Positions 14,237 through 30,921 of a DNA stretch of 35,255 nucleotides are shown here, one piece after another. Position numbers and translations under genes: made by a program. A model generated the notes under the pieces. That model saw nothing but the letters and a program-made list of their open reading frames with translations, made no database searches and was not told the origin of the DNA. The DNA is taken from the IMG/VR virus record IMGVR_UViG_3300008450_000188, positions 1 to 35,255 of that record; one strand, 5' to 3'. Position 1 is the stretch's first letter, and each line of letters opens with the position of its first letter. The stretch is from a virus.

Positions 14237-14441
14237 GGCTTTTCTCCTTTGTTTTAATCATTTCATCTGCATATTCATATGCTGATTCTGGAAACCAACT
14301 AATACTGTCTGGTTTAAATTCTGTGTTGTATTTTTTTGATAATGTTTCTAATGATTTAACAATTTGATAATTTGCTAACAATCCTTGCAATGCCATTGCA
14401 GCAAAATAATCTCTTAATTCAATATTATCTGGTTTTGTCAT
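14229..14441 (-). CDS. Conserved small phage protein (70 aa)
   Basis: The pattern LRDYFAAMALQGLLAN near the N-terminus and AYEYADEMIKTKEK near the C-terminus is widespread in small phage early proteins of unknown function. The start shares one base with the ERF stop (TAATG). It lies in the ERF-SSB operon, so an accessory role in recombination or replication is possible. Confidence 0.7.
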   Translation of the reverse strand: MTKPDNIELRDYFAAMALQGLLANYQIVKSLETLSKKYNTEFKPDSISWFPESAYEYADEMIKTKEKSHE

Positions 14442-15043
14442 TATTTATTCTCACTAGAGTATCGTTTATAAGCTGACCTAGTCTTGCTATCTAATAAGCC
14501 CCACATAACAGACTTCTGTTCATTGTCAAGCGCATCCCATGTTACTTTAGCTTCAGCAGGATTGCCTTGCGCCATAAATGCTGTAAAGCCTTCAGCTAAA
14601 CTATGTAGGATGTCCATTTCTTCTTTGCTGTACTCTGGTGACTTGAGTTCTGGTATTACTGGTTTTTCTGACCCTGTAGTAGCATCTAGCACATCGTGTT
14701 CAACAATTTCCATTGCCACGACCCACAAATACCTGCGCTGATATGTTTCTACCGCCCCTACGTTTTGCACCTCATGGCAGCCCTTTAACGCTGCGCTACC
14801 CATGGGGCTAGTGATAACTATCTGTGAGTTGTCATCAATGTCTGTAATGGTCAATGTTGCCAAGTCTGACGTAAAGCTAACAACACCACATAACCCTTGA
14901 TTGCTAAATATGTTGTTAATGGTTGGCAAAAAGTCACCAAGTTCAAAATATTTGTAACCTGCAAACTTATTGTGACCAGACTTGCTTAGTTTTGTGTTCT
15001 GTAATTCTAAACGTGCATTATTTAATTTTTTGTAAACTGACAT
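14441..15043 (-). CDS. ERF-family single-strand annealing protein (200 aa)
   Basis: The protein contains the ERF signature: GHNKFAGYKYFELGDFLPTINNIFSNQGL (about residues 22-50), SPMGSAALKGCHEVQNVGAVETYQRRYLW (about 79-107). ERF proteins anneal complementary ssDNA and promote circularisation or recombination of phage DNA, as P22 Erf does. The C-terminus (about 135-200) is a less conserved helical region. With SSB and nearby nucleases it gives the phage its own recombination set. Start ATG 15043 lies one base after the previous stop. Confidence 0.88.
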   Translation of the reverse strand: MSVYKKLNNARLELQNTKLSKSGHNKFAGYKYFELGDFLPTINNIFSNQGLCGVVSFTSDLATLTITDIDDNSQIVITSPMGSAALKGCHEVQNVGAVETYQRRYLWVVAMEIVEHDVLDATTGSEKPVIPELKSPEYSKEEMDILHSLAEGFTAFMAQGNPAEAKVTWDALDNEQKSVMWGLLDSKTRSAYKRYSSENK

Positions 15044-18559: not shown

Positions 18560-19158
18560 TAGTTTTTCGTAAGAAAGTAGACGCATGGGTAGTAACAGCT
18601 AGGGATTCAGATTGCCAAATAATTCATATCGGTGATTATAAAACACAAGAAGAAGCCAAGGCAGCAGAACAAGCATTTAAAGAGAAAAGACTAGCAGAGT
18701 CATACGCTAAACAAGAAGCAAAGCTAGACAGACAAGCAAAAGAGATGGTTGCTAGATATAACGTCTACCTAGAGTTTTGTGTATTGCCTAAGACTTTAAC
18801 TGACATGAAGCAACATTTAGATGCTGATAAAAATACTGCGTCTAATACAATTAAAAGTTTGATGGCCCGTGGATATTTAAAAAGCATTGTCATTAGCGAC
18901 ACCAGTTCACGCAAATATTATAGCTTTGTCACTATCAAGCTAATGAGTTACGAAGAAGCATTGGAATACGTGTCACCAAGAAAATACAAAACCAAGGCTA
19001 GTGAAAATGAAGCAACAATCCCTGGTGCAAGGGTAATTAACTTTGATGACAATAAATTGACCAAGCTATACATGACACAGCGTGCAATAGACAGGGCTAA
19101 TATGAAGTCACCTAAGAATTATGTTAGCGGTGCTTTAATGTCAACGGCGGATTGGTAA
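18556..19158 (+). CDS. Winged-helix hypothetical protein in the lambda-Q position (200 aa)
   Basis: The N-terminus (about 10-45, AWVVTARDSDCQIIHIGDYKTQEEAKAAEQ) resembles a small AP2-like beta domain; a charged helix follows, then a winged-helix-like part (about 75-125, LTDMKQHLDADKNTASNTIKSLMARGYLKSI). The C-terminus is basic. It lies after NinB and the Ref-like gene and just before the promoter that starts the late genes, where lambda encodes antiterminator Q. A regulatory role in late transcription is a guess from position plus DNA-binding appearance. The ATG overlaps the previous TGA. Confidence 0.55.
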   Translation: MIVFRKKVDAWVVTARDSDCQIIHIGDYKTQEEAKAAEQAFKEKRLAESYAKQEAKLDRQAKEMVARYNVYLEFCVLPKTLTDMKQHLDADKNTASNTIKSLMARGYLKSIVISDTSSRKYYSFVTIKLMSYEEALEYVSPRKYKTKASENEATIPGARVINFDDNKLTKLYMTQRAIDRANMKSPKNYVSGALMSTADW

Positions 19159-19391
19159 TGAGAGTTACTAGCGATGGTTCAAGCGCAAGCTACTACGAGT
19201 TGCCTAAAGATGCTAGTGAGTTGCAAGACTTAATTAGCGCAAAGAATATGAACGCACAGATAGGGGAGATATTTAGAGAGTGCTACAGGTATGGACAGGC
19301 ATCACATTGTGACGAGATACGAGGCATTAAAAAGATTTTATTCTATGCCAATGCTGAGTTGAAAAGATTAGCCAGTCAAGATAACTCCTAA
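19158..19391 (+). CDS. Conserved small phage protein (77 aa)
   Basis: ATG 19158 shares one base with the previous stop. The sequence SASYYELPKDASELQDLISAKNMNAQIGEIFRECYRYGQ.SHCDEIRGIKKILFYA is a frequent small phage protein, with a logic similar to DUF3310 proteins (a YRYG/YLWR-like core and a helix at the end). No biochemical role is known to me. It is the last gene before the late promoter region. Confidence 0.7.
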   Translation: MRVTSDGSSASYYELPKDASELQDLISAKNMNAQIGEIFRECYRYGQASHCDEIRGIKKILFYANAELKRLASQDNS

Positions 19392-19417
19392 CTGGCTATT
19401 AAATAGCAACAAATATG

Positions 19418-19489
19418 TTACTTATTCATTACGTACATAGTAACTTCAAAGCCAAAACGCATTTCTGTAGCAGCTGGTGTTGTCCACAT
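19418..19489 (-). CDS. pqqA: PqqA-like pyrroloquinoline quinone precursor peptide (23 aa)
   Basis: The reading frame on the minus strand gives a 23-residue peptide opening MWTTPAATEMR and continuing GFEVTMYVMNK. PqqA peptides are 22-24 residues with the pattern M-W-x-x-P, R-x-G-[FL]-E-V-T-x-Y; the Glu (E15) and Tyr (Y19) that become PQQ are both here at the right distance. AAGGA lies 8 nt before the ATG. No pqqBCDE is present, so the peptide would feed host PqqD/PqqE. It stands alone, antisense to its neighbours, beside the late promoter. PQQ is the cofactor of methanol dehydrogenase, which suggests a methylotroph host. It is an auxiliary metabolic gene by inference. Confidence 0.88.
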   Translation of the reverse strand: MWTTPAATEMRFGFEVTMYVMNK

Positions 19490-19533
19490 GATAGTAGTCC
19501 TTAATCTGTGATAAGCAAGATTGCTTGTATGTA

Positions 19534-19588: not shown

Positions 19589-19617
19589 TTGACGCAAAGT
19601 AAGAGATATGATATAGT
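19589..19617 (+). promoter_or_regulatory. Strong rightward promoter for the late genes
   Basis: TTGACG (19589-19594), a 17-base spacer and TATAGT (19612-19617) preceded by TG (extended -10) make a near-consensus promoter. It is the only strong plus-strand promoter I see between 17492 and the late genes. Transcription should begin near 19624, about 10 nt before the first terminator hairpin. Confidence 0.8.
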
Positions 19618-19632
19618 CACGTAAAGATTTAT

Positions 19633-19659
19633 AGTAGTGCAATTTTGCATTACTTTTTT
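19633..19659 (+). terminator. Intrinsic terminator directly behind the late promoter
   Basis: AGTAGTGCA (19633-19641) pairs with TGCATTACT (19646-19654) around an ATTT loop, with one G-U pair, followed by six T. This would stop transcripts after roughly 35 nt unless RNA polymerase is modified, the arrangement seen at lambdoid late promoters. Confidence 0.75.
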
Positions 19660-19714
19660 ATTCCGGCGACAGTACATCGCTAGAAAGCAATCATTGCCCC
19701 TCAGACGTGATAGG

Positions 19715-19758
19715 GTAGACTCCGAGGTAGTCTAGTTGCGAGAACCTCCTACTTTTTT
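19715..19758 (+). terminator. Second terminator with competing antiterminator in the late leader
   Basis: GTAG (19715-19718) plus GAGGT (19724-19728) can pair with ACCTC-CTAC (19744-19752), followed by six T (19753-19758). An alternative hairpin, TAGACT (19716-19721) with AGTCTA (19729-19734), uses the same bases and excludes the first. Smaller hairpins (GCGA/TCGC, CCC/GGG) fill 19660-19714. The ribosome site of the next gene (AAGGA, 19759-19763) begins directly after the T-tract. Confidence 0.55.
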
Positions 19759-19768
19759 AAGGATAGTT

Positions 19769-20137
19769 ATGGGCTTATTGGACATTAAAGAAGGTATCGT
19801 ATCTGTTAAAGAGAACGACGCAAACACAGAAAATGCCATTAAAAACTATTCCCTTGGGCCATTAAACCCAAACTTACCTAACAAAGAATACTGGTCAAAG
19901 ATGGCCAAGTCATTCCGAATCACTCCAGACGAAGCTAAACGTCAACGCTGCGGTAACTGCGAATACTACGAAAATACTCCATCAATGCTTGAGATGATGG
20001 AAGAAATCCCATTAAACAAATACGACCTATACGATGGTCAAGCCCAACGTGGCTATTGCCATAAGCTAGACTTTATTTGCCATAACTCCCGTCTATGTTC
20101 TGTATGGGAAGAAAAAGAATTTGAGATGGAGGATTAA
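19769..20137 (+). CDS. Cysteine-rich metal-binding protein, first late gene (122 aa)
   Basis: ATG 19769 is chosen for AAGGA with a 5 nt spacer; an upstream in-frame TTG at 19736 lies in the leader hairpin. The N-terminus (LLDIKEGIVSVKE) precedes a C-terminal domain with CGNCEYY (about 62-68), then GYCHKLDFICHNSRLCSVWE, giving five cysteines and a histidine in a pattern like high-potential iron-sulfur or zinc proteins often seen in phages. The function is unknown. Confidence 0.7.
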   Translation: MGLLDIKEGIVSVKENDANTENAIKNYSLGPLNPNLPNKEYWSKMAKSFRITPDEAKRQRCGNCEYYENTPSMLEMMEEIPLNKYDLYDGQAQRGYCHKLDFICHNSRLCSVWEEKEFEMED

Positions 20138-22660: not shown

Positions 22661-22951
22661 ATGGCAGAGTTTGAAAAAGTAGAAGAAATATCAAATCGTG
22701 GCGGTAAGCGTGAAGGTTCTGGTAGAAAGCCAGGAACACCTAACAAAATATCAGCTACAGTTAAAGACAATGTAATTGCAGTATTTGAAGGCATTGGTGG
22801 TGTTGAACACATGAAGGTGTGGGCAATAGACAATCCCAATAACTTTTATAACATTTACGCAAAGATATTGCCTATACAAACAGAGTTAAGCGGTGCTGAA
22901 GGCAAGGACTTAGTTATTAATATAGTAACAGGTATCAATGACCACGATTAA
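22661..22951 (+). CDS. Small terminase subunit-like protein (96 aa)
   Basis: The N-terminal GGKREGSGRKPGTPNKIS (about 14-31) is a basic AT-hook-like motif found in many phage small-terminase-type proteins; a helical part (VKDNVIAVFEGIGGVEHMKVWA) and an acidic end follow. It should recognise phage DNA for packaging. The stop overlaps the TerL start by 14 nt. An imperfect hairpin (GTGAC/GTCAC, 22633-22654) sits over the upstream GGAG site. Confidence 0.7.
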   Translation: MAEFEKVEEISNRGGKREGSGRKPGTPNKISATVKDNVIAVFEGIGGVEHMKVWAIDNPNNFYNIYAKILPIQTELSGAEGKDLVINIVTGINDHD

Positions 22952-24200
22952 ACTTGCATACGCACCACGCGACCCGCAGAATCAGATACACAGGGCAGTA
23001 AGGGATAATCGGTTTGTAGTATGTGTAGCGCACCGGAGGATGGGTAAGACGGTAGCAGCTATTAACCAATTAATCCATAGCGCATTGAAGAATAAGCAAG
23101 CGAATCCTCGTTATGCTTACATTGCGCCAACTTATAGCCAGGCAAAGCGAGTAGCGTTTGATTACCTAGTAGAGTTTACAAGACCATTAGGTGCAACAGT
23201 AAACATCGCTGAGTTACGAGTAGACTTTATGGGCAGACGTATCAGCCTGTATGGTAGTGAGAATGGTGACAGCTTACGAGGTCAGTATTTTGATGGCGTA
23301 GTGCTAGATGAGATTGGTGACCAAAACCCAAAGATATGGAATGAGATTATCAGGCCAGCTTTAGCGGATAGAAAAGGTTACTGCTTATTTATAGGCACAC
23401 CAAAAGGTAACAACCATTTTAAAGAGTTTAGAGATAGGGCAGAAACAGCACCAGAAGGTTGGAAGCTGCTAGAGTTCAAGGCAAGCCAAACAGGTTTACT
23501 AGATGCACAAGAGTTGTCATCAGCCAAGAACGAGATGGGTGAAGACAAATACATCCAAGAGTTTGAGTGTAGCTTTGATTCACCAGTAGAAGGTAGTTAC
23601 TACGGCAAGCTAATGAATGAGGCTGAAGAAGCTAATCGCATTGGTGTAGTGCCTAGAGATGATTTAAGCAATACATATACAGCCTGGGACTTGGGTATGT
23701 CAGACTCCACCAGTATTTGGGTGGCACAAGTAGTAGGTAAAGAAGTAAGGCTAGTGGACTATGTAGAGAATCACAGTCAATCGCTAGAGTGGTATGTAAA
23801 CTGGCTACGTGATAACAACTGGCACAAGGCCACACACATATTGCCGCATGACGTTGAAGTAAGAGAACTAGGAACTGGTCGGTCACGTAAAGAGATGTTG
23901 ATGGAATCAGGGCTTGATATAATCATTGCACCTAAACTATCAGTAGCAGATGGGATACAATCAGTTAGGCGTTTATTACCTAGATGCTGGTTTAATAAAG
24001 AAACAACAAAGCAAGGCATTGACTGTCTAAGAAACTATAGACGAGTGTATGATGAAAAGCGTAACGTGTTCTTTGACACACCATTACACGACTTTGCGTC
24101 ACACGGGTCAGATGCTTTCAGATATTTAGCAGTAGGCTTAAACGAACCTGATTCGTCATGGACTCAGCCACTTAACGTAAATACTAAATGGGTAGTGTAA
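22938..24200 (+). CDS. terL: Terminase large subunit
   Basis: This motor ATPase and nuclease cuts and packages phage DNA. The 420-residue protein shows Walker A AHRRMGKT (31-38), Walker B VVLDE (121-125), coupling motif GTP (153-155), and RNase-H-like nuclease acids in AWDLGMSD (D251), HDVE (D305) and HGSDAFRY (D392). The length is normal. The portal gene starts at or just after its stop. Confidence 0.95.
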   Translation: MTTIKLAYAPRDPQNQIHRAVRDNRFVVCVAHRRMGKTVAAINQLIHSALKNKQANPRYAYIAPTYSQAKRVAFDYLVEFTRPLGATVNIAELRVDFMGRRISLYGSENGDSLRGQYFDGVVLDEIGDQNPKIWNEIIRPALADRKGYCLFIGTPKGNNHFKEFRDRAETAPEGWKLLEFKASQTGLLDAQELSSAKNEMGEDKYIQEFECSFDSPVEGSYYGKLMNEAEEANRIGVVPRDDLSNTYTAWDLGMSDSTSIWVAQVVGKEVRLVDYVENHSQSLEWYVNWLRDNNWHKATHILPHDVEVRELGTGRSRKEMLMESGLDIIIAPKLSVADGIQSVRRLLPRCWFNKETTKQGIDCLRNYRRVYDEKRNVFFDTPLHDFASHGSDAFRYLAVGLNEPDSSWTQPLNVNTKWVV

Positions 24201-24202
24201 AT

Positions 24203-26377
24203 ATGGATGAATTAGAACTAAAGACGATTATCTCCACAGAGATTGACAACTCCATCGGTTATTTGGAAACAGAAACCGTTGAAGACCGTGCCACCTCTAT
24301 GGACTTTTACCTACGTAAGCCTTATGGCAACGAGGTAGAAGGTAAGTCATCAATAGTTACTGGGGAAGTCGCTGAAGCAGTAGACGGTGCATTACCTCAA
24401 CTAATCCGTGTTTTCACGTCTAGCGAAGATGCTGTGCGTTTTGAGGCTACTAAGGATGGTGGCGATGAGTTCGCTGACCAGGCTTCTGACGTAGCTAACT
24501 GGGTATTCTACAAGCAGAACGATGGCTTCTTAATCATGCACAACTGGTTCAAGGATGCCTTGATGCAGAAAGTTGGTGTGGTTAAGGCTTACTGGTCTGA
24601 CGAGAAAGACATCACGAAAGAAACCTACGAAGGTTTGACTGATGATGAACTCACCATGCTAATGATGAATGATGAGTTTGAGATACTAGAACAAGAAACA
24701 TTGACAGATATGCGTGAAGGTATGCCTATGGTTACCACGCACAACGTCAAGATTAAACGCACTAAAGACAAGTCCAAGATTGTTGTAGAGAACGTACCAC
24801 CTGAAGAATTCCTAATTGATAAACGTGCAAGGTCTATCCAAGACGCACAGTTTGTAGCACACCGTAAACGCATTGCCCGTGGTGAATTGATTGCTATGGG
24901 TTACGATAAAGAAGTTGTAATGAACATTCCTATCGGTGACCGCTTAACATACAGCCCAGAGATACTAGCACGTTACTCACAAGGTGAGATACCACAGGAC
25001 ATTGTAGACGTTGATGACGCAATGCAAGAGGTTGAAATCTTTGAATGCTACATCAAGGTAGACATGAACAAGTCTGGCTTGCTTGAGTTACGCAGAGTTA
25101 TGTACGCAAACAACACAATCTTGGATGACGAAGACTGTGACTATGTGCCGTTCCACTCTGTATGCCCATTTCCTATCCCACACAAATTCTTTGGTCAATC
25201 ATTGTCTGACCGCACGATGGACTTGCAACTAATCAAGTCTACAATCATGCGTCAAATGCTAGACAACTTGTACCTAACAAATAACTACCGTGTTGGTGCA
25301 GTAGAAGGCCAAGTAAACTTAGATGACTTGCTAACATCAACTGCTGGCGGTGTAGTGCGTATTAAGAATCCTGGTGCTATCGTGCCTATGACGGTTCAAT
25401 CCACAGCAGCACAATCATTTCCTATGATGGAATACTTGGATGGCGTACAAGCTAAACGTACTGGCGTTAGCGATATGCAGCAAGGCTTAGACCCAAATGT
25501 ATTGCAGAACGTATCAGCCACAGCAGTAGCTGCAATGACACAGCAATCAACCGGTAAGCTAGAACTAATAGCACGTATCTTTGCTGAAACAGGTGTTAAA
25601 TCATTGTTTAAAGGTATCTTGCATTTAATGTGCAAATACCAAAATTCAGTACAGACAGCACGAATTCATAATAGCTACGTACAGTTTGACCCACGCGAAT
25701 GGGACACAGAGTACAACGTAACTATTAACGTAGGTTTGGGTAACGGTAATAGACAAGAACAAATAGCCATGCTTCAAATGATACTTGCCAAGCAAGAACA
25801 AATCATTCAGCAATATGGGCCAACCAATCCACTTGTTTCCGTTACCCAATACCGTAAGACACTTGGTCGCATGATTGAGATGGCTGGCTTTAAAGACACG
25901 ACTTCATTCTTGAACGAGGTTACACCTGAAGTTGAACAAGGCATCCAGCAACAAGCAGCACAGGCAGCACAAGGTCAATCAGACCCAACAGCTATCTTTG
26001 CTGAAGTTGAGAAAATGAAAGCGCAATTACAAGCACAAACAGCGCAAGCTAAGATGCAAGCAGAACAAGCTAAACAACAAGCGCAGATACAACTAGCGTC
26101 AGAGAAACTACAAAGTGACCGTGAACAAGCAATTGCTGACATTGCTATGAAGCAAGCTGAGTTGTCTATGTACGAAGAAAAAGCAGCACTAGAGATTGAG
26201 ATGCAACGCGTTAAACTTGTGCAAGACGAAGCAATGGCTGACCGTAAGCAATCATTAGAAGAACGCAAACAAGTTGTAGCAGAGTTAGAGATAGTAAGCA
26301 AAAGCCTAAACGACATCACAGACGTTGAGATGGCTAAAGCTGAATTATCTAATCTATTGGCTCAGTTGAGGGGATAG
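24203..26377 (+). CDS. Portal protein, P22-like long type (724 aa)
   Basis: It forms the dodecameric ring through which DNA enters and leaves. The size (P22 portal is about 725 aa), the opening ELKTIISTEIDNSIGYLETETVEDRATSMDFYLRKPYGNEVEG, and the core FGQSLSDRTMDLQLIKSTIMRQMLDNLY match this family. The last 150 residues are a Gln/Ala-rich coiled coil like the portal barrel. An earlier in-frame ATG at 24188 overlaps terL by 13 nt and also fits; neither has a strong ribosome site, and the later one is slightly preferred. Confidence 0.88.
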   Translation: MDELELKTIISTEIDNSIGYLETETVEDRATSMDFYLRKPYGNEVEGKSSIVTGEVAEAVDGALPQLIRVFTSSEDAVRFEATKDGGDEFADQASDVANWVFYKQNDGFLIMHNWFKDALMQKVGVVKAYWSDEKDITKETYEGLTDDELTMLMMNDEFEILEQETLTDMREGMPMVTTHNVKIKRTKDKSKIVVENVPPEEFLIDKRARSIQDAQFVAHRKRIARGELIAMGYDKEVVMNIPIGDRLTYSPEILARYSQGEIPQDIVDVDDAMQEVEIFECYIKVDMNKSGLLELRRVMYANNTILDDEDCDYVPFHSVCPFPIPHKFFGQSLSDRTMDLQLIKSTIMRQMLDNLYLTNNYRVGAVEGQVNLDDLLTSTAGGVVRIKNPGAIVPMTVQSTAAQSFPMMEYLDGVQAKRTGVSDMQQGLDPNVLQNVSATAVAAMTQQSTGKLELIARIFAETGVKSLFKGILHLMCKYQNSVQTARIHNSYVQFDPREWDTEYNVTINVGLGNGNRQEQIAMLQMILAKQEQIIQQYGPTNPLVSVTQYRKTLGRMIEMAGFKDTTSFLNEVTPEVEQGIQQQAAQAAQGQSDPTAIFAEVEKMKAQLQAQTAQAKMQAEQAKQQAQIQLASEKLQSDREQAIADIAMKQAELSMYEEKAALEIEMQRVKLVQDEAMADRKQSLEERKQVVAELEIVSKSLNDITDVEMAKAELSNLLAQLRG

Positions 26378-28995: not shown

Positions 28996-29964
28996 ATGGA
29001 AAATACCATGACCCCTGCTACAGGGAATGGCACGGTGCAAGACGCAGCAAGCCAATTTTTTGACATGATGGAAGAAGCGGAAAACCCAGAAGGGCAAAAT
29101 GAAGCTGAACAAGAATCAGACGAAATTGAGGAAGGCGAATCTGAAGAGGAAGTATTAGAAGCCTCTGAAGAACTTGAAAGTGAAGACGAAGATGAGGAAC
29201 AGGAATCAGAACCTACTTACCGTATTAAGATGGCTGGTGAGGAACGTGAGATAACCCAACGTGAACTTATTAAGTTAGCACAGCAAGGCGCAGATTACAC
29301 CAAGAAGTCACAGCAAGTAAGCGAACAACGCAAAGCGTTAGATGCAGAAGCTGCGGCAATTAACGAGGCTAAACAGCTACGCAACGAATACGCCCAACGT
29401 CTTGAAGCAATGCAGCAAATGCTAAAGGCTCAACAACCTGAGGATGATTTAGATTATCTACAGGAAAATGACCCGATTGGCTACGCTGTTAAAGTTGCAG
29501 ATATGACTAGGCGTGAAAAGCAAATGCAAGCAATTGAGTACGAACGTCAACGCATTGCCCAACAGCAACACGCGGAACAGTCCGAACATCAACGCAGGCA
29601 AATTGCTGCGGAAGCAGAAAAGGTCACAGAGTTAATTCCTGATTACTCAGACGCGAAGAAAGGTGCTGCATTACGAAACGAGTTACGTAACTATGCAAAA
29701 AGCATTGGTTATACAGACGAAGAAATAGGCGCAGTCTATGATGCTCGTACTGTTAAGGCTCTTTACGATGCAATGCAATACCAAAAGTTGGTTGAATCTA
29801 AACCAGGCGTATCTAAGAAAGTGCAATCCGCACCTAAGATGATTAAGTCAGGCACATCAACTAACAAAACAAGTACAACCGAAGCACAAAGGCGACAATT
29901 CAATAAGTTGAAATCAACTGGTAGAGTTAAAGACGCTGCTTCATTATTTGAAAAATTTATTTAA
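28996..29964 (+). CDS. Scaffolding protein (322 aa)
   Basis: The N-terminal 90 residues are extremely acidic (runs of Glu and Asp such as SEEEVLEASEELESEDEDEE), followed by TYRIKMAGEEREITQRELIKLAQQGADYTKKSQ, a signature of phage scaffold proteins, then a long Gln/Ala/Arg-rich coiled coil and a basic C-terminus that would contact the capsid protein. It stands immediately before the major capsid gene, as expected. AGGAAG precedes the ATG. Confidence 0.85.
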   Translation: MENTMTPATGNGTVQDAASQFFDMMEEAENPEGQNEAEQESDEIEEGESEEEVLEASEELESEDEDEEQESEPTYRIKMAGEEREITQRELIKLAQQGADYTKKSQQVSEQRKALDAEAAAINEAKQLRNEYAQRLEAMQQMLKAQQPEDDLDYLQENDPIGYAVKVADMTRREKQMQAIEYERQRIAQQQHAEQSEHQRRQIAAEAEKVTELIPDYSDAKKGAALRNELRNYAKSIGYTDEEIGAVYDARTVKALYDAMQYQKLVESKPGVSKKVQSAPKMIKSGTSTNKTSTTEAQRRQFNKLKSTGRVKDAASLFEKFI

Positions 29965-29973
29965 GGAATCAAA

Positions 29974-30921
29974 ATGGCAACCTATCAAACCTACACCGCT
30001 ATTGGTCAGCGCGAAGACCTAATGGATGTTATCTATAACATAGCCCCAACAGAAACACCTTTCATGTCATCAATTGGCAAAACATCTGCTACTGCTCGTT
30101 TACACGAATGGCAAACAGATACTTTGGCTGCTGCTGTTACAACTAACGCGGCAATTGAGGGCGCAACTGCATCATCAGCTTCAATCACTCCATCAGTTCG
30201 TGTTGGTAACCGCACACAGATTTCACAAAAAACCATTGCTATCTCTGGTACTTTGGAAACTGTAAACAAAGCTGGTCGTCGTTCAGAGAAAGCCTATCAA
30301 TTGGCTAAAGCCTCTAGCGAACTAAAACGCGACATGGAAGCAACATTGCTTTCAAACAACGTAGCTGCTGATGGTGACGGTTCTACAACTGCTCGTACAT
30401 TGGGTGGTTTACAAACATGGTTAAGTTCTAACTACTCTGGTGGTTCAGGTGGTTCTGCTGGTACATTAGGTACTACAGCCCGTGTAACTGGTACTGACCG
30501 TGCGTTCACAGCAACACTATTGAACACAGTAATGCAATCTGCATTTACTAACGGTGGTTCACCAACAATGTTGTTCGTAACTCCAGCACAAAAAGTTGTT
30601 GCATCAACATTTACTGGTATCGCTACTCGCTACCGTGATGTTCCTTCTAATCAACAAGCACAAATCATCAACGCTGCTGACGTGTACGTGTCTGACTTTG
30701 GTATCATCCAAATCGTACCAGACCGTTTCATTCCTAACGCTGACAACGATGATTGCGCTTTCTTGGTTGACACAGAGATGGCTGCTGTTTCTTACCTACG
30801 TCCATTCCAAACTAACGAATTGGCAATCACAGGTGATGCGACAAATACACAACTTTTAGTTGAGTACACATTGCAAGTGAATAACCAAGCAGCACACGGT
30901 ATCATTGCTGACTTAACCTAG
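29974..30921 (+). CDS. Major capsid protein, SU10-type (HK97 fold) (315 aa)
   Basis: The start TYQTYTAIGQREDLMDVIYNIAPTETPFMSSIGK and the later RTQISQKTIAISGTLETVNKAGRRSEKAYQLAKASSELKRDMEATLL are typical of the SU10/DUF5309 major capsid family. Also present are SPTMLFVTPAQKVVASTF and the C-terminal VYVSDFGIIQIVPDRF. The length of 315 aa is usual. The codon choice looks optimised for strong expression, and a terminator follows the gene, as often for capsid genes. Confidence 0.92.
   Translation: MATYQTYTAIGQREDLMDVIYNIAPTETPFMSSIGKTSATARLHEWQTDTLAAAVTTNAAIEGATASSASITPSVRVGNRTQISQKTIAISGTLETVNKAGRRSEKAYQLAKASSELKRDMEATLLSNNVAADGDGSTTARTLGGLQTWLSSNYSGGSGGSAGTLGTTARVTGTDRAFTATLLNTVMQSAFTNGGSPTMLFVTPAQKVVASTFTGIATRYRDVPSNQQAQIINAADVYVSDFGIIQIVPDRFIPNADNDDCAFLVDTEMAAVSYLRPFQTNELAITGDATNTQLLVEYTLQVNNQAAHGIIADLT

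Follow-up and report, generated by a model that had tools for sequence, protein, structure and literature searches.

PQQ is the cofactor of methanol dehydrogenases, the enzymes with which methylotrophs of the OM43 and LD28 groups oxidise one-carbon compounds in marine and lake waters. The cofactor is built from a peptide, PqqA, which is presented by PqqD to PqqE, cross-linked between a glutamate and a tyrosine, trimmed and finished to PQQ. One PqqA peptide is consumed per PQQ, and while the enzymes of the pathway outlast their messages, the substrate peptide does not. PqqA must accordingly be translated anew all the time, whereas the enzymes persist. A phage copy of pqqA would in this respect follow the same logic as the psbA gene of cyanophages, which supplies the high-turnover photosystem protein D1, namely that a turned-over component is supplied, although psbA encodes a protein subunit and pqqA a consumed substrate peptide.

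Phage-encoded PqqA is already known. The closest described case is the T4-like methylophage population VP_266 from Lake Baikal, which carries PqqA together with methanol dehydrogenase, and for which a role in methanol oxidation was proposed (PMC7678222, 2020). The same study states that the cultured phage P19250A encodes none of its auxiliary metabolic genes (AMGs), a statement to which our finding of pqqA in P19250A is contrary. Virus-encoded pqqA, pqqE and pqqD have furthermore been reported as auxiliary genes in reservoir sediments (PMC13188868, 2026) where, as far as the accessible text of that paper goes, they are read as phosphate-solubilisation or phosphate-cycle genes, and neither their genome context nor selection on them is treated. 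In the papers describing the cultured phages Venkman, Melnitz, MEP301 and MEP401/402 pqqA goes unreported, and in the open-licence literature we found no paper on the spread of pqqA across cultured methylophages. In this work we describe a pqqA gene in a small virus genome and show that the distribution of phage PqqA is much wider than reported.

The stretch of DNA analysed here (the window) is one virus record of 35,255 bases with a podovirus-like genome. The presence of a terminase large subunit on the plus strand (22938..24200; PHROG 2, E=2e-33) identifies it as a tailed phage, and the same strand encodes the portal protein (24188..26377; PHROG 1216, E=3e-158), a head scaffolding protein (28996..29964; PHROG 3927) and the major head protein (29974..30921; PHROG 1328, E=4e-100). 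An ERF single-strand annealing protein of the recombination module lies on the minus strand (14441..15043; PF04404, PHROG 155), and the other recognised products comprise a repair exonuclease, a primosomal-type protein, NinB, an endolysin, an Rz-like spanin and tail fibre proteins. The scan of the window proteins brought up no integrase. The closest proteins to those of the window belong to the spring-water phage ctXG6705 and to Venkman, the host of which is the OM43 methylotroph H5P1. VP_266 and, probably, the window are both phages of Methylophilaceae with PqqA, but VP_266 is T4-like and has methanol dehydrogenase, whereas in the small genome of the window pqqA is the only pathway gene found.

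The preliminary description had proposed a 23-codon PqqA gene at 19418-19489 with its strand unstated. The gene is indeed there, on the minus strand, where the frame read from 19489 to 19418 opens with ATG (19489..19487), closes with TAA (19420..19418) and specifies the 23 residues MWTTPAATEMRFGFEVTMYVMNK; the plus strand over the same positions reads LLIHYVHSNFKAKTHFCSSWCCPH, which is not PqqA. The 23-residue product scores above the curated cut-offs of both PqqA models, PF08042 (E=3e-10, 40.3 bits against a cut-off of 21.1) and the NCBIfam equivalog TIGR02107 (38.8 bits against 20), and resembles the family in length and motif, with an E-x-x-x-Y arrangement in which Glu15 and Tyr19 stand four residues apart at the usual positions, as the translation bears out. 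It differs from the familiar members of the family in being phage-borne and alone, with no pqqB-E nearby. The family search returned zero matches in 14 control genomes, and no solved structure matches the window peptide. Of the six frames over the gene, that of pqqA alone stays open in all 144 viral copies compared. These family scores, the empty control genomes, the sole open frame and the occurrence of the identical peptide in P19250A confirm, at the level of sequence, that the predicted gene at 19418-19489 is a genuine PqqA frame and not a chance one.

The good ribosome site that had been noted earlier is an AAGGA Shine-Dalgarno (SD) sequence on the minus strand (19498..19502), 8 nt before the ATG. 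Past the stop codon, starting at a distance of 19 nt, a terminator-like hairpin with a 13-bp stem followed by ATCTTTT (19369..19398, minus strand) also overlaps the 3' end of the plus-strand gene at 19152-19391. The latter, a 79-residue frame (19152..19391) with a weak PHROG hit, is convergent with pqqA, while on the other side a plus-strand frame at 19769..20137 (133 residues when started from the TTG further upstream, at 19736) is divergent from it. As both neighbours lie on the plus strand, pqqA looks like a unit of its own. The stretch of the pqqA transcript folds 2.8 sd better than its shuffles (z = -2.8). No sigma-70 promoter was found upstream of pqqA on the minus strand, the enrichment across phages being too weak to claim, and a search of RNA families over the pqqA region gave no match. 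As a separate observation, the gene at 19769 is preceded by a leader of about 165 nt (19607-19772, plus strand), which is 90% identical in three other viral contigs (L050, L054 and L071) that carry pqqA too; this leader is without an Rfam match, and its part at 19645-19770 is without unusual folding.

How general is this arrangement? A tblastn search of the 23-residue peptide against 50,697 phage records matched P19250A (100%), ctXG6705, MEP301, Venkman, MEP401, MEP402 and four variants of Melnitz. The cultured methylophage P19250A encodes a peptide identical to that of the window from DNA that is 93% identical. All nine Methylophilales phage records reached by our searches (MEP431-434, HIM624-A, phiMB624-A and a further Venkman record are listed in the taxonomy but did not come up in the phage searches) carry pqqA, and they fall into five dissimilar groups, represented by the siphovirus P19250A, the podovirus Venkman, MEP301, the Zobellviridae MEP401/402 and the T4-like Melnitz. 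Outside these nine, ctXG6705, a phage genome with no recorded host, is also positive. In whole-record scans each of the seven records scanned contained one pqqA above the family cut-off, and for the three further Melnitz variants the gene is known from the tblastn match. The cultured methylophages resemble the window in having one pqqA each, which their records either leave without annotation or cover with an antisense ORF. The expectation that gene callers would miss so short a gene is borne out: the pqqA stretch is blank in the annotations of P19250A, Venkman, MEP301, MEP401 and MEP402, and in Melnitz and ctXG6705 an antisense ORF is annotated on top of it, since annotation either drops genes of 23 codons or overwrites them with such ORFs. 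In the Melnitz phages MZ577095-MZ577098 (for example MZ577097, 76100-76195, minus strand) and in MW202481 (2067-2195, minus strand) this antisense ORF is entered as a 'hypothetical protein'.

Queries with Pseudomonas and Methylorubrum PqqA found no further phage group among the 50,697 records. Matches to 'Acinetobacter phage MD-2021a' were dropped, since ppk and a radical SAM gene occur there beside pqqB, pqqC and pqqD; this record (CAKLQF020000010.1) appears to be a bacterial chromosome inside the phage collection. The terminase family of Venkman takes in 26 Pelagibacter phage records, none of which was matched by the PqqA queries. That these pelagiphages are unmatched while the methylophages are matched indicates that pqqA follows host metabolism and not phage ancestry.

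Metagenomic viruses extend the picture. We scanned IMG/VR with a degenerate DNA pattern for GFEVTMY (scan 1) and with a pattern for the N-terminal half of the peptide which does not require Glu15 or Tyr19 (scan 2); each yielded at least 120 stretches and both together at least 149 distinct viral pqqA loci. Nearly all of the scan 1 matches listed are complete PqqA genes of 23 or 24 residues. One copy (L251) is cut by the end of its contig, and every complete copy among the matches listed has Glu15 and Tyr19. Among the labelled loci listed, 126 have other proteins in common with the cultured methylophages, ctXG6705 or the window. Together with the peptide match in P19250A and the occurrence of the identical peptide in Methylotenera genomes, these shared proteins support the earlier suggestion of a methylotrophic host. 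A minority of the viral copies are other PqqA types, and because phage hallmark genes (terminase, portal, phage polymerase) stand beside most of those checked, phages of other PQQ-making hosts may also carry pqqA. One such separate type (TYExIRLGFEVTMYFKN and similar) occurs in the viral contigs L005, L014, L019, L025 and L029, the last of which has terminase and portal genes.

Carriage is patchy: window-type records have the gene in 8 cases out of 12, MEP301-type records in 6 out of 16 and MEP402-type records in 1 out of 12, some of the absences being due to fragments; in methylophage groups pqqA is accordingly accessory and not universal. The nearest relative of a viral copy is another viral copy in 106 of 131 cases, a count biased by the smaller host sample, and this fits the view that the gene has long resided in phages, with some exchange. 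A 72-kb viral record (G137, 72,356 bases) contains, besides pqqA and an adenylate-cyclase/CHASE2 protein, a full PQQ alcohol/methanol dehydrogenase in a frame of 628 residues (34049-35731), and is likely to be a further example of the Baikal-type methylophage.

The manner in which the viral copies vary bears on what is conserved. Among the matches listed, 136 distinct viral copies of 23 residues gave a pS of 0.59, near saturation, with a pN/pS of 0.17, and outside the search motifs the ratio was 0.27 in scan 1 and 0.13 in scan 2. Identity between viral copies at codon positions 1, 2 and 3 is 0.89, 0.92 and 0.64, respectively, while the flanking columns lie at 0.26-0.34, near random, except for the 20 bases just ahead of the start codon, where the SD site lies. 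Conservation thus begins at the SD sequence and stops at the stop codon. Start codon and ribosome site are likewise under selection, with the 4-mer core of the SD ahead of 154 of the 155 viral copies (about 13 expected); a terminator-like hairpin follows 92 of 153 (13 expected), and at 49 of 135 viral loci pqqA is antisense to both neighbours. Glu15 and Tyr19 are retained in all 134 viral copies examined among the matches listed, and likewise in all 27 from the search that did not require them. The frame, far from being disrupted in related phages, is intact there, and viral pqqA is a host-derived metabolic gene which selection has kept whole. This pattern shows that the peptide itself is what selection keeps.

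The same data bear on two readings that would deprive the gene of a function in the phage. Were pqqA a passenger fragment of host chromosome, for example an attP core lying within a host pqqA, its small size, its closeness to host DNA (95.8% at best) and its position at module boundaries would be accounted for, but an integration core would be conserved as DNA irrespective of codons, and no such conservation was found: codon position 3 varies far more than the other two, the flanks are near random, and the conserved block runs from SD to stop codon. The window proteins scanned, moreover, include no recognisable integrase. The codon pattern, random flanks, SD sites, sole open frame and hairpins taken together lead us to reject both the passenger and the integration core, a reading we regard as very improbable, and argue that it is the peptide which is kept. 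Even less probable is mis-assembly or host contamination, which could be entertained because the virus record of the window is metagenomic, but which is contradicted by the complete cultured phage genomes that carry pqqA, one of them with the identical peptide, and was rejected; in addition, pqqB-E lie near none of the 149 viral pqqA loci listed, and genes for terminase, portal, scaffold, capsid, recombination and tail proteins flank the region on either side. The carrier is therefore a phage, both in the window and in culture.

As far as the searches reach, the supposition that only the precursor is supplied has held up. Within the stretches fetched, pqqB-E were found at none of the 149 viral pqqA loci listed, whereas the like treatment of 119 bacterial loci found them at 73, and none of 49 whole viral records had a PqqE above the cut-off. 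One pqqA-bearing record (G148, 47246-47494) has a weak radical-SAM match of 27.7 bits to PqqE, far below the cut-off, which is probably another radical SAM enzyme. The pathway itself is available in the hosts. All 122 Methylophilaceae genomes searched have pqqA, in one to 12 copies; 3-12 pqqA genes beside single-copy other pqq genes are reported for this family (PMC4109929), and each of 14 streamlined genomes of candidate hosts, 1.2-1.4 Mb in size, has one pqqE above the cut-off together with two or three pqqA. Where pqqA and pqqE are on one contig in the streamlined genomes, they are separated by about 100 kb or more. Several of these genomes (G006, G008, G009, G011, G013, G015 and others) have a tandem pair of pqqA genes about 200 bases apart and a third copy, some 100 kb from pqqE. 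That streamlined genomes retain a substrate gene more than once suggests that the supply of PqqA peptide is limiting in the hosts. Many viral peptides are identical to host PqqA, and since the host already has 1-12 copies, an extra copy from the phage helps only if host pqqA is silenced, destroyed or limiting.

On this basis we consider it probable that phage pqqA is a self-contained, moron-like auxiliary metabolic gene of a lytic-looking podovirus infecting Methylophilaceae, which feeds the PqqB-E of the host. If the phage takes over host transcription or degrades the chromosome, the PQQ pathway would be starved first at PqqA. The phage peptide, cross-linked at Glu15 and Tyr19 and trimmed by host PqqD/E, PqqB and PqqC, would then yield PQQ, such that a gene of 72 nt could provide a cheap cure by which PQQ, methanol oxidation and energy are kept flowing. 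We infer here that the gene is expressed, that the host is taken over, that host enzymes modify the peptide and that PQQ is raised.

Two further readings accept the peptide as selected and assign it a different task. The preliminary description had offered, beside the supply of precursor, the option of a decoy or regulator that binds PqqD/PqqE unprocessed and lowers PQQ output or blocks another step. PqqA binds PqqD, so that an over-expressed peptide could compete, but for such a role the modified side chains of Glu15 and Tyr19 would be dispensable, yet they are invariant in all copies, including the 27 for which they were not required, and this disfavours the decoy; the phage peptide is besides often identical to host PqqA, and a gain from less energy during infection is not obvious. 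This option is hence not supported, and we judge it improbable. Only slightly better placed, and still unlikely, is the reading of a peptide that descends from PqqA but performs another job for the phage, either as a modified signal or as an unmodified small regulator. Further ribosomal peptides have been tied to phage-host interaction (PMC11118758), which lends this reading some analogy; however, the constraint sits on the residues that define PqqA, the carriers are phages of PQQ-dependent methylotrophs while related pelagiphages are unmatched, and in one viral record a PQQ alcohol dehydrogenase accompanies pqqA.

The supply of precursor to the host pathway remains the preferred reading. A broader proposition, on which we are evenly divided, is that methylotroph phages have acquired a lone pqqA repeatedly and that it comes near to being their hallmark, unrelated groups of which phages keep the precursor and no enzyme because precursor supply fails first in infection. 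As an auxiliary gene, pqqA would also provide a consumed substrate peptide rather than an enzyme. Because cultured phage-host pairs exist, this role is directly testable. Should pqqA prove to be the rule among cultured methylophages, viruses would control methanol oxidation generally and not just in one Baikal population.
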